A stretch of DNA of 64,000 bases from Antennarius striatus (taxonomy: Eukaryota; Chordata; Actinopteri; Lophiiformes; Antennariidae). The DNA is taken from contig NC_090785.1 in assembly GCF_040054535.1 (NCBI RefSeq), forward strand, positions 5,265,501-5,329,500, read 5' to 3'. A program made the position numbers and the translations under genes. The notes beneath the pieces were generated by a model, which was given only the letters and a program-made list of their open reading frames with translations, had not been told where the DNA came from and searched no databases. Of the stretch, positions 4,601-10,600 are shown piece after piece; position 1 is the first letter of the stretch; every line of letters begins with the position of its first letter.

Positions 4601-7600
4601 GCATGGTCTGTCTACAGACTGATGAGGCTTTGGGCCTAGTCACCTATACTCTGTGTCTGTTGTCAGCTCGTGTCTGTGTTAACTGATGTTTGATCTGACC
4701 ATTGAAGGGGTCAGACAAACTTGGGGCGCCACTGTGCTGTCATTTCACCAAAGACTACTGTGGTAATGTTGAAAGACACGAAGACCTTCAAATAAACAAC
4801 CTTTCCTTCAGAGCTCTCCTTAGTGTAATCACATGTGGTAGCCAAAGACAGCATTTGAAGTATTTAAGTCATCTTAGGCCCAAATAGTGGTATAGTTCAG
4901 CTATTACATGATTCGCCAGGGACCAATAACCCTCAACATGAACACTGCCTCCATCATTTAATGATGGTAGAATCGTAGATTTGAAATTCCTGCAGTGTGT
5001 TGATGAAATCCTCCTCTACAACGCCTCATCAATCTTCTCTGCTGGCTAATGACAAAATACTGCTGTCTTTAATCTTGCATTTCCTGCTGTGTTCCAGCAC
5101 TGATCACTGATTATGAGAAACCATTAAACAGAGTACAAGTACTGTACACAGTCTTTTGCTCTTCATTCATTCTTGTCATTTTCATCCCTTTACTCCTACG
5201 CAGTTCAAATACTTGAAGAATCTGCTCCTTGTCCACGGAGCCTGGAACTACAACCGTGTAGCCAAGTGTATCCTGTACTGTTTCTACAAGAATATTGTCC
5301 TCTACATCATTGAGGTATGTTTTACACTGCAGCTTCCAAGTTTCTTATTCAGATCTGAATGCAAAGCATTGATATTTTGATGATTGGGAAGAGGAAAAGA
5401 TTTCTTGTTAGAGTTTCCATGTTTTTATTTCCTTTGGTATTTACCTGCCAGTTTGTACAGCTCCTGTCTGATTGGTTTGAAAAAGCAGGCTCCCACAAAC
5501 ACATGCTTGGTAATGAAGAAAAAATAGACATGATTAACTGAAGTGGCTTTAGGGAATTCTCACCAGTAAAGGCACTATTGCAATATACAGTATAATGTAC
5601 ATTGTATACAGTAAACATATAGATCATATAGACATATCCAATTTACCATGCAGTGTTTGTTTACAAGTGGGCAACAACAGAACAATGCAATATCATTGCA
5701 GCGATTTCATTGTGGTTGATTCTTAATTTAGTTTGTCACAAAAGTTGATTGGACTAGCATCTTCAGTATGTTGTTGGTATTTTTAAGCAATTTTTTGTTG
5801 AACACTAGCATTTGTTTACTGAATTAAAGGAAAATTAGAAACACATATAAACATTCATTTTAACCCAGTTCTTCAATTACTCACGTTTAACTGGACATCT
5901 ATGCTCTTCATAGCCACCCAACTGAACTCCTTGTAAATTATTCAAGGTTGGGAATGTTCATGCATCGGTCTGTTGGTATTTGGTATGATGGAATTTGACA
6001 GACACCAGACATACTACTGATTGCAGGTTCAGACCTACAAGCAAAAATGGCAGACAGGTTAAGTGCTTCCTATTACCAGCAGGTTTATCACTTGGGTGCT
6101 CAGACGTTTTGAGCTACAGACGGCCACACCAAGTAGCAAGTTTAGCTTAACATTTTATAAGAAATCTAAATCTGAAGTTACTGCTGACTGTTAGATCATA
6201 CTTTCACGCACATCAACTCAAATCAATCAATCAAAATTTATTTGTATAGCACTTAATCACATCAGCAGACATTTCGAAGCGCTTTACAGAGAAACCCAAC
6301 AGAACCCTCCAGAGCAAGCATAAGCGACAGTGGCGGGGAAAAACTCCCTCATTGAGGAAGAAACTCCGGGCAGGACCCAGACTTTGGAGGGCGGTCATCC
6401 GCCTTGACCGGTTGGGTTGGAAAAAAATACAATTGAGATAGGGATGTTTCATGAATGTTCAAAAACAAAGAAATCAGTAATTTATGGGAGCTCATGATTT
6501 GTTATATTTGGATATTCTGAAATTTGGAGTGAAAGGAAAAAAAATATGGCTCCAAAAACATGCTAAATATAAAATAAAAAGATGGAAAACAAATCGTCCA
6601 CAAACATATCTGCCTGAGTCATGTTAAATACATTTTCTTTGTCACTGTTGAGGACACTTTTTTTTTTTTAACTGTATGGGAAACCGGAGCACCCGGAGAA
6701 AACCAAACCAGAATTTCTGATGTTGTTAGTAGTAGATGTCAGATGCGTGCGTCCGCTATTGCAGATTAACATGTCTGTCTATCGGCGCCTCCTGGCTCGA
6801 GACTTCACAGATTTACGCCTGACCCTGCGGCGCTTGGGCATCTTCTTGATTTTGCGCCTGGCTGTACGCCTGGTTGAACTCTTGGTTCTACGCCTGGGCC
6901 TCCTGGATGTGGATCTGGACCTGCTTCTCCGTGTTGCTCTTCTTGCCATTTTTCTTGTCGGCTAAATTGTATGTACATATTGGGTGCACGTACTCATATT
7001 TATAGGCTTCCGACATCTGAGATGAAAGAACATTTACTGATAGATCAAAGCCACACTAATCATCTTTTATCTCACCTTGTGCTTTCAGTAGTTCTTCAAA
7101 ATGACATACTGAAAATGCGTTTTCTTAGGTTTCTCTTTCTTTGCTGTAAACCATTACCTTTGAAGACGGATTTTGTTTTTGGTTCTTGAAGATGAAGACA
7201 ATCATAATTGTCTCATGTTGCAAACATGTGTCTTGTCCAGCTGGGCCTGGAGGTTCTTGTTGAATTCCTTCATGAACTTAATTTTGTCCATATACTGTAG
7301 TTGTTTCTCTGAAGTACTAGTTTACCTCTTTCTTATCAACTTTGTCACATCTAGCTTTCTCTACTCTCAGTTGGTTTTCAGGTCTTGGATCTCTTTCTCC
7401 AGTCCAGCATTTTTTTTAACCCATGTCAACTTTGGCCAGCCTGAAAAGCTTAACTAATTCCATAAGTGATGCTGGTTTCATAGTGTCTTAAAGATACTGA
7501 GAGTCATATTGATCTCTCTTCAAACCTCCATCAGCAACAGACCTCTCTCTGCAAAGTCTATGGTCACCAGTCTGATGAGCTCATTAAAGCTTTGTAAATC

Positions 7601-10600
7601 TCTTTTTACAATGCTTTGATGAGCTTGTCAGCATATTTGGCTGATTCCAGTGTTTCTTTGTGTAGCTGAAATGTGACAATCCAGTGTTATTGTGTCTCTT
7701 TTGAATAAAATTACAAAACTAAATCTAATTTTCCGTCTTCATTCTTGCTTCAGGTGCAATTGCCTCCTTAAATAGTCGAAATTTTCCACGACATCTTGAA
7801 AGGCCGTCAGTCTGGACGGATGGTGAATTGACACATGGATTAAACCATGTTTCAAAAGGGAAGATGAGTGTTGTGGCTCAAGTAACTGGTTCGCTAGTGG
7901 TTTCAACTCATTAGATGCCATTTGCCATTTGATGTCTGTCTATCGGCGCCTTCTGGCCCGAGACTTCACAGCTTTACGCCTGACCCTGCGGCGCTTGGGC
8001 GTCTTCCTGATTTTGTGCCTGGCTGTACGCCTGGTTGAACTCTTGGTTCCACGCCTGCGCCTCCTGGATGTTGATCTGGACCTGCTTCTCTGTGTTGCTC
8101 TTCTTGCCATTTTTCTTGTAGAATAAATTATATGTACATATTGGGTATACGCACTCATATTTATAGACTTCCGACATCTGAGATGAAAGAACATTTACTG
8201 ATAGATCAACACCACAGTAATAACCTTTCATCTCACCTTGTGCTTTCAGTAATCATTCAAAATGATATACTGTAGATAGCTTTTCTTAAGTTTTTCTCTT
8301 TCTTTACCTTTGAAGGCGATCAGTTTGTTTTTTGGTTCTTAAAGATGAAGACGATCATAATATCTCATGTTATAAAACATGAAACTTCTTCTGTGACTTG
8401 TCCAGTTGCGCCTGGAGCTTCTTGTTGATTTCCTTTATGAACTTAATTTTGTCCATGTAGTCGTGTCTGAATTACTACTTTAACTCTTTCTCTCTTCTCA
8501 AATTCGTCACATCTAGCTTTCTCCACCTTCAGTTGGTTTTTCAGGTCTAGAATCTTTTTCTCTAGCTCAGCATTCTTTTGCTCCATATCAGCTTTTGCCT
8601 CCTCAACCTGAAAAGCTTTACTGACTACAACCAAGGCAGTCAGAGACTGCAACATCTCGCGACACCCCTGAACTCAAAATTTTACCCTGACTTACTTTCA
8701 GGGTAGGTCAGGGTAAGTCACCAGATGTTGCAGTCTCTGAATTCAAAATCAAAGAATTGGTATATAAAAGCACTAGCTTTAATCTATGATCTTACTCACA
8801 CTGGCCTTTTCCCTATTTTATTCAGTTCCTGACCTAGTTTTTTCAAGGTCAAGGTCATCATCTCATTTTCATAAGTCTTTCCACTTATGAATGCTGCTCT
8901 GAAATAAAAGAAAAAGTTATCCATAATTTTTGCTGGATCACAGCTCTTCTCTGAAACAGACCGGATCTCTTTTCAAAGCGGGTGTTTTTCTGCAGCTGGG
9001 ACATAACGTCTATACTCTAGTTCTAGCTACAGGCCGAGCTTCCCTCCAGCACACCTTTTGTTCCCCCTCTAATAACATAACCCCCCACCCCCCACTTCAC
9101 TTTTTCAAGGGATTCAAGTGTATAATAGGTCATTTTTTCACTCTTTGGCTGCCTCAGTATTTCAAATGTTCCTGTTTTGTAAGACCCTGACATTTAAGAA
9201 CATAAGCAGCCCCGGGGTACGAGCAAAAGCTGCATTTGTTGCACTAATAGGTTTACTTTTGTGCTCGCATGTTTTTCTCGTCGACTCCCAGGCTTCCTTG
9301 CAAAGACAGAATCAAGGAAGTTGACGGGAATTTTAACTTTTTTGTTCACAGCGCCATTGTCTGATACAGTGTGTGCAACAATTTGAATACTAGGACCTGG
9401 AGACTCAGCGTTTAAGCCTCCTTTGGTATCCGTCTTTTTTCCACAGGGTCTTTGGTTCTTTTTAAAAGACAGGAGTAGGAGGGCGAAGGCTTCTGCAGCT
9501 ATTGTGGAAGACATGAATGTGACTGCAATTTAGTTTAAGGGTCTTGGAACAATTGTGTGATAATTCAAGAGTTTCTGTGACTCACTGAGGGATAATTGTG
9601 AGTTACAAACTGTCACTCCAGGGGATGATGATGATTGACTGGCAGCAGGAACTGCTTTGCTTTCTGCATGCTGTTGATTGTGGTTAGTATTTCCTTTTCT
9701 TGTCAGGAAAAGAACAGTCAGACATGGTCATATTGAAATTCGAATGTACATTTAATTAAGAGGAACACATAATTACTCAATATCTTTTAAACAATTTGCC
9801 CCAATAATTAAAAAAAATTGAAATAGAATTCAAAACCTTTTTGAATGAATTATGCCACAGTAAAGCTAAGACTTTCCTTTCCAAATGAAGCCAAAGTAAC
9901 TACATTCAAATGGCCGGTCCAGCTGGCCACTCATGTTTGATTGACACATTTTCGGGGTGCTACAGAAGGGGCTGATGGACAAGTGGTGTTTATGAGGCAA
10001 TTACATGAAAGCTCTTTCAGTACGGCTCAGTGTGGTCAGAAACGCCTTGGAGTTTCAGAGTAAAGCATGCCGGCAGTTGTGCATTGAATGAAACCACAGA
10101 GGCCGTGTCTGGCATTGTGAGACAGCTTGTGTCTGTAGATCCACATATTTTCAGCACATTTAGTGGCTCCCTCTTTATGTCCCTCTGTATTCTTGGCTTG
10201 CTTTGTGTATGAATTCCATTAGCGATTCAGCAATACAAAGCTTAAGAGCATCAGGACCCGTATTGTTTAAGAAAAAAATGCCATACACCCCCAACTCTCC
10301 AAGCCATAGCTAGTTTTAGACAAGGCCGCACCTAAACAGTCTTGGAATCAATGATTTCTGATTCGCTGATGAATATGCAAGAAGTCTTCTTATCAGCTGG
10401 CTGCTGCCCAGTCTCCCTTTTCTCCACTCCGGCTTCCCTCCATTGCTGTTTTTCATGATGTTCAGTCAGGGAGAGAGGCCAACCACACCCCTTCGCTGAG
10501 TGGCACTCAATGAAGAGAAGAAGAAAAACGGGGGGAGAAAATCCTGCCTAGTACTTCCCCTAATGAGCAAATCAATGCATCTGTCCCTCAAGAGACGGCA

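Follow-up and report, generated by a model that had tools for sequence, protein, structure and literature searches.

Do two short, arginine-rich open reading frames (ORFs), lying antisense in an intron of an atp8a1-like gene of Antennarius striatus, encode a sperm protein, and how did they come to be there? The ORFs, A and B, are located in the window, a 64,000-nucleotide stretch of contig NC_090785.1 (assembly GCF_040054535.1, positions 5,265,501 to 5,329,500). The original prediction described them as a pair of protamine-like genes nested in the host gene. The nested protamine-like genes gained support from four more members, a common promoter and ORFs that are in phase, and the picture of a pair standing alone had to be given up. 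The protamine-like family consists of six genes, is real and intact, and is more than a pair. We consider it likely, judging from the sequence, that this is a small intronless, TATA-driven protamine-like family, that a segment was copied from a locus like that on contig C21 into the atp8a1 intron, and that the genes have a role in spermatids. The coordinates of all features are collected in Table 1.

Both ORFs were found intact, on the strand and at the spacing predicted, and they were as basic as had been claimed. Neither contains Asp, Glu or Cys; there are 25 Arg residues in A and 24 in B. The start codon of A has an A at -3 and a G at +4, and the reading frame of B extends upstream across the TATA region to an earlier ATG (84 aa). 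The 10 differences between A and B over 171 positions (7 nonsynonymous and 3 synonymous) were reproduced. As predicted, the flanks diverge more than the ORFs: the 115 positions of the proximal 5' flank hold 13 differences, and 99 positions further upstream hold 21. ORFs reaching both 50 aa and 45% Arg+Lys did not occur in any of 100 simulated 64-kb windows with the first-order base statistics of the window. The real window counts one, since the upstream ATG of B dilutes its composition and leaves it uncounted.

The genome (548 Mb, 42 contigs, with the window on C10) was searched with the DNA of copy A. Six places were found genome-wide: the two window copies, on C10, and four places on C21. 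All four C21 places contain an intact Arg-rich ORF (c21_1 to c21_4), within about 6.3 kb (C21:13679.7-13686.2 kb). The six members are 55-66 aa long, with 47-57% Arg+Lys and no acidic residues; the four that were measured have 43-50% Arg, 6-13% Lys and 23-31% Ser/Thr. Cys is absent from five of the six, and the proteins start with MARR, MARA, MPCG or MASR. Protein queries performed less evenly: the first retrieved only the window pair, two of the six members, and others retrieved three and four of the C21 genes. Composition filtering probably hides family members from protein searches, and a more distant member could have been missed. One weak protein-query match, known from the match list and not from its sequence, lies on C13 (E 5.56, 48%, in a 245-aa frame).

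The promoter ties the six copies together. The 548 Mb contain exactly six occurrences of an 18-bp core, GGAAGYCTATAAATATGA, one ahead of each ORF, and the same pattern read backwards, used as a control, does not occur in the genome. The TATAAA within the core begins 49-55 nt before the six ATGs. The TATA box, TATAAATA, had been predicted to stand at the same distance from the ATG in A and B; it does, with 47 nt in between instead of the 48 bp proposed. Mean pairwise identity among the six copies is 40% from -260 to -150, 84% from -115 to 0, 82% in the coding sequence (CDS) and 78% in the 60 nt after the stop codon.

The aligned coding bases share the same phase in all six copies. Every distinct gap run in the CDS is divisible by three (6/6), compared to 4 of 13 in the flanks (1/8 on the 5' side and 3/5 on the 3' side). 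Neutral evolution of the six copies was simulated in 2000 runs, for which the CDS supplied the branch lengths. The ORFs stayed open with their ATG in 21 runs, no acidic residue arose in 150 and Arg+Lys stayed at or above 46.6% in 18; a single run (1/2000) kept the three properties together. For the window pair, 6000 neutral runs gave a weaker result: 3328 were free of acidic residues, 40 kept at least 53.5% Arg+Lys and 15 kept all three properties. It looks as though basicity and openness were kept in this family, rather than the exact sequence. Conserved basicity without conservation of the exact sequence is expected for protamines.

A conserved block of about 50 nt follows the stop codon of A and of the four C21 genes, five of the six members, and is absent from B. 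Its mean column identity is 85%, and four of the five rows contain UACUAAC, which we take to resemble a STAR-protein site. This block could be a translational control element. The predicted hairpin within it has z-scores of -3.8 in c21_2, -3.6 in c21_1, -2.8 in c21_4 and -2.0 in A, and no hairpin was predicted at the corresponding place in B (z +0.8). Over the five copies, 96% of the hairpin positions pair, and slid versions pair far less. An Rfam scan of window positions 6600-8200 gave 11 matches, all sub-gathering (best E 0.089), and no histone stem-loop. The motif CCGGGTGCTCCGGTTTCC, located within 6677-6716, is found again next to several family copies and at other places on C21. Near it, beyond copy A on the 3' side, there is a SINE-like repeat, recognized by eye, at about 6225-6420.

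The origin of the pair is suggested by what lies upstream of it. Ahead of each ORF is a fragment resembling DNALI1 (axonemal dynein light intermediate chain), identified by PDB and Pfam matches. The one upstream of A is broken, with six stops (3 TGA, 2 TAG and 1 TAA) as well as frameshifts; the one upstream of B has no stop inside the aligned pieces. Elsewhere in the genome, dnali1 on C9 is in separate pieces (with introns), and intact single-frame dnali1-like genes are present on C21 and C22. The C21 and C22 proteins are 54.6% identical with a dN/dS of 0.55, and the two genes are likely functional retrogene-type copies of this flagellar dynein subunit. The match list also includes a DNALI1-family piece on C7. 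About 2 kb separate the C21 dnali1-like gene from the first protamine-like gene there, and the dnali1 part of the window is closer to this C21 gene (77-80%) than to the C22 copy (67-69%). Directly downstream of the C21 dnali1-like gene is a probable decayed seventh protamine-like unit (L010 ~4600-4900), in which the 3' flank matches well and the promoter part only at E 0.039. The C22 copy is followed by flanks of the unit that persist without an ORF, and this locus is probably a deleted protamine-like copy. As the simplest history, we infer from these relationships an ancestral neighbourhood of intronless dnali1 and a protamine-like gene, which would have been copied across chromosomes, amplified locally on C21 and set in tandem in atp8a1. 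We also considered whether DNALI1 had been fused to a basic tail and rejected this because the TATA box and about 300 bp intervene.

Two elements were seen near these dnali1-like sequences. A MITE-like element of 101 bp (window 8640-8740) adjoins the DNALI1-like fragment of B; its 24-nt terminal inverted repeats are 92% complementary, and it contains an inner palindrome. In inverted orientation, window positions 8624-8849 match a place on C22 close to the dnali1-like gene there, and an NLR-type (NACHT) reading frame, named by eye, is also found near that gene (L011 1-1707).

The proposed course of events is as follows. A segment with a dnali1-like and a protamine-like gene would have reached the atp8a1 intron as a copy from a C21-type locus, and a tandem duplication would have followed there; its dynein part would have broken as the basic ORFs remained open. 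In spermatids, transcription would begin some 25-30 nt past the TATA box and give a short mRNA, perhaps held back by the 3' hairpin. Its charge would bind the 56-aa Arg/Lys protein to the DNA backbone, its Ser/Thr residues might be phosphorylated, and the protein would help to replace histones in condensing sperm chromatin. A bolder version, that the joint dnali1 and protamine unit is a mobile testis segment copied between chromosomes (C21, C10 and C22), we regard as doubtful. If it were true, sperm-packaging genes would be born, lost (on C22 and in the copy by the C21 dnali1-like gene) and nested in somatic genes, which would be a vertebrate parallel, possibly conflict-driven, to the turnover of sperm basic protein genes in Drosophila. 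Antisense transcription would then tie atp8a1 to spermiogenesis.

Several findings weigh against a working spermatid family. Codon models gave an omega of 1.33 across the six copies, indistinguishable from 1 (2dlnL 1.29). Since a dN/dS of about 1 fits neutrality too, it provides no evidence of purifying selection. The ORFs contain 12-bp internal repeats, from which the in-frame indels may partly stem, and this weakens the gap-phase test. The N-terminus of c21_3 deviates (MPCGTGG), and its 3' block folds weakly (z -1.4) and in a different shape. Covariation in the hairpin was no better than in shuffles, 277 of 500 of which reached the observed score, in a test whose structure was derived from folding the same sequences. 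No AATAAA or ATTAAA was found within 400 nt downstream of any of the six copies; a single AATAAA is present at +536 in copy A, and there is no conserved AATAAA-type signal. Four of the six members were given to Pfam and two to NCBIfam, and neither assigned them a family. For the window pair, the divergence between A and B is uninformative when taken alone (825 of 6000 runs keep the three properties together), openness alone is common (1710 of 6000 neutral runs), and B, polarized by the C21 genes, carries Gln, Gly and His in place of the original Arg at codons 7, 21 and 32.

The last two points also speak for the most serious alternative, namely that A and B are transplanted duplicates, already dead or on the way there, and that the working genes are those of the C21 cluster. 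The neighbouring DNALI1-like fragments are broken, B lacks the 3' block in addition to its three Arg residues, and dN/dS between A and B is 0.81, all of which would fit decay. However, the joint persistence of basicity, openness and freedom from acidic residues was rare in the neutral runs of the pair, the promoter core is retained in both A and B, and A retains its 3' block. We therefore hold this alternative to be possible but on the unlikely side. The two copies may also differ in their fate. Their homology stops about 8 bp past the stop codon. By comparison with C21, A changed Thr37 to Met; at codons 18 and 35, B has Arg and A has Pro and Lys, and codons 18, 35 and 47 are not polarizable with certainty. 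The branch leading to B is about 3.4 times as long as that leading to A (0.048 vs 0.014). Since B is missing the 3' block and three of its Arg and lies on the longer branch, A is the stronger candidate for being a working gene. Copy A is probably functional, and copy B may be weakly functional or dying.

An unlikely alternative is that the family encodes another Arg-rich product, such as a transition protein, an RNA-binding RS peptide or an antimicrobial peptide. The blank family scans would agree with this, as would Lys and Ser/Thr contents above those of short salmon-type protamines. Nevertheless, these are very short single-exon ORFs with a TATA box near the ATG, multi-copy and diverged, no secretion signal was recognized in them by eye, and a dnali1-type (flagellar) gene or fragment adjoins them on both C10 and C21. 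It is very improbable that the ORFs are not genes and arose by chance from a repeated element rich in Arg codons, as CCGGGTGCTCCGGTTTCC following several copies and the 12-bp repeats might suggest, given only six copies in 548 Mb, all six open and in phase, and nothing comparable in the simulated windows.

A sperm nuclear basic protein is the best reading, one that we infer from the features of the sequence. Copy A, the only member compared with PDB sequences, had no match there. The genome search with PF00260 was uninformative, since it returned nothing either here or in 14 control genomes. With a salmine-type query no gene of that kind turned up in the genome, the one weak place being on C15 (E 1.26). 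This place was rejected: its frame lacks a protamine-like start, and another frame resembles, by eye, a lipid-transfer (START) exon. Since the members given to Pfam (four of six) and NCBIfam (two of six) match no model and the length and Lys content are unlike those of salmon-type protamines, the family is assigned to a functional class only.

The location of the pair in the intron was also confirmed, as P4-ATPase exons flank it on the plus strand. One exon ends at 5314 (GT at 5315) and the next starts at 12519 (AG at 12517-12518). The joined peptides of three exons matched 6k7g best (E 1.1e-65), an entry labelled phospholipid-transporting ATPase, ahead of 16 other P4-ATPase sequences (DRS2, the next, at 9e-30; type IC at 3.3e-25; type IG at 9.7e-15). 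We take 6k7g to be ATP8A1, and the host sequence would fit ATP8A1 rather than ATP8A2; none of the matches is labelled ATP8A2. The C21 cluster is intergenic. It lies after the last exon of one gene and before a second gene on the opposite strand, presumably plxdc1-like and plekhm1-like; domain matches in these neighbours were NIDO (sub-threshold), PH and RUN.

Table 1. Features of the protamine-like family, the host intron and the dnali1-like sequences (window positions unless a contig or locus is given).
Feature	Position	Strand	Remarks
Protamine-like ORF A	6779..6949	-	56 codons, 57% Arg+Lys, intact
Protamine-like ORF B	7940..8110	-	56 codons, 54% Arg+Lys, intact
Tandem duplication of the A/B unit	6771..8650	-	1161 bp start-to-start
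C21 protamine-like ORF	C21:13679777-13679941	-	55 aa
C21 protamine-like ORF	C21:13680956-13681153	+	66 aa
C21 protamine-like ORF	C21:13682738-13682917	+	60 aa
C21 protamine-like ORF	C21:13685933-13686100	-	56 aa
TATAAATA of copy A	6997..7004	-	starts 55 nt before ATG
TATAAATA of copy B	8158..8165	-	starts 55 nt before ATG
18-bp promoter core GGAAGYCTATAAATATGA of copy A	6994-7011	-	within proximal promoter
Conserved proximal promoter and 5' UTR (untranslated region), copy A	6950..7064	-	-115 to -1
Conserved proximal promoter and 5' UTR, copy B	8111..8225	-	one of six copies aligned
Predicted hairpin just after stop of copy A	6740..6777	-	within conserved 3' block
3' block rows	L010 7816-7877, L010 9255-9316, L019 1118-1179, L019 4071-4132, window 6720-6781
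DNALI1-like fragment upstream of copy A	7226..7684	-	broken, intronless; stops and frameshifts
DNALI1-like fragment upstream of copy B	8391..8625	-	two frames, one frameshift
dnali1-like gene, intact, single frame	C21:13676834-13677646 (L010 4935-5747)		271 aa
dnali1-like gene, intact, single frame	C22 (L011 4847-5737)		275 aa from first Met
Intron of atp8a1-like P4-ATPase gene	5315..12518	+	7.2 kb; antisense host of A and B

The loci described here allow the birth and loss of protamine genes to be tested: besides the six intact copies there are probably one decayed and one deleted copy, and co-copying with a dynein gene is a likely route. Such genes are easily overlooked, as the blank scans of the members given to Pfam and NCBIfam and the partial return of the first protein search illustrate. 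Among the top-ranked matches to searches of titles and abstracts (fish protamine loci, synteny, dnali1 by protamine), no such cluster was described. A stickleback paper (PMC12503298) holds no protamine passage, and another article (PMC9258737) gave nothing on fish loci. According to excerpts of two papers, the basic proteins that package sperm DNA vary widely among fish and may be histones, protamine-like proteins or protamines (PMC11607694; PMC13148410). A passage in a third states that seabream sperm is without protamines (PMC9391476), and a passage in a fourth reports that the testis of the teleost Monopterus albus expresses a protamine (PMC8041806).

How does the family compare with known systems? 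The protamines of salmonids, clupeids and scombrids are 31-35 aa long, about two thirds Arg and intronless; they are multi-copy in salmonids, and the salmonid type starts with MPRRRR. Like teleost protamines, the family is short, single-exon, Arg-rich, acid-free and multi-copy, with a TATA box near the ATG. Unlike the salmonid type, its members are longer, contain more Lys and Ser/Thr in the four that were measured and lack the MPRRRR start. Tetrapod protamine P1 (PF00260) shares the MAR-R start, the Ser-Arg N-terminus, the Arg clusters and a length of about 50-60 aa; the family differs from it in having no Pfam match among the members given, no intron and, in five of six members, no Cys. Protamine-like (PL) proteins of the histone H1 type are sperm chromatin proteins that, like the family, are basic through both Lys and Arg. 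In contrast to them, the family is far shorter, and the Pfam scan of four of its six members showed no winged-helix domain. PL proteins are reported for some fish in a passage of PMC13148410. In Drosophila, genes for sperm nuclear basic proteins (ProtA/B, Dox-related) have been repeatedly copied to new places and are fast-evolving, as described in part of PMC9917458. The family would resemble these amplified genes in its probable copying to new places.

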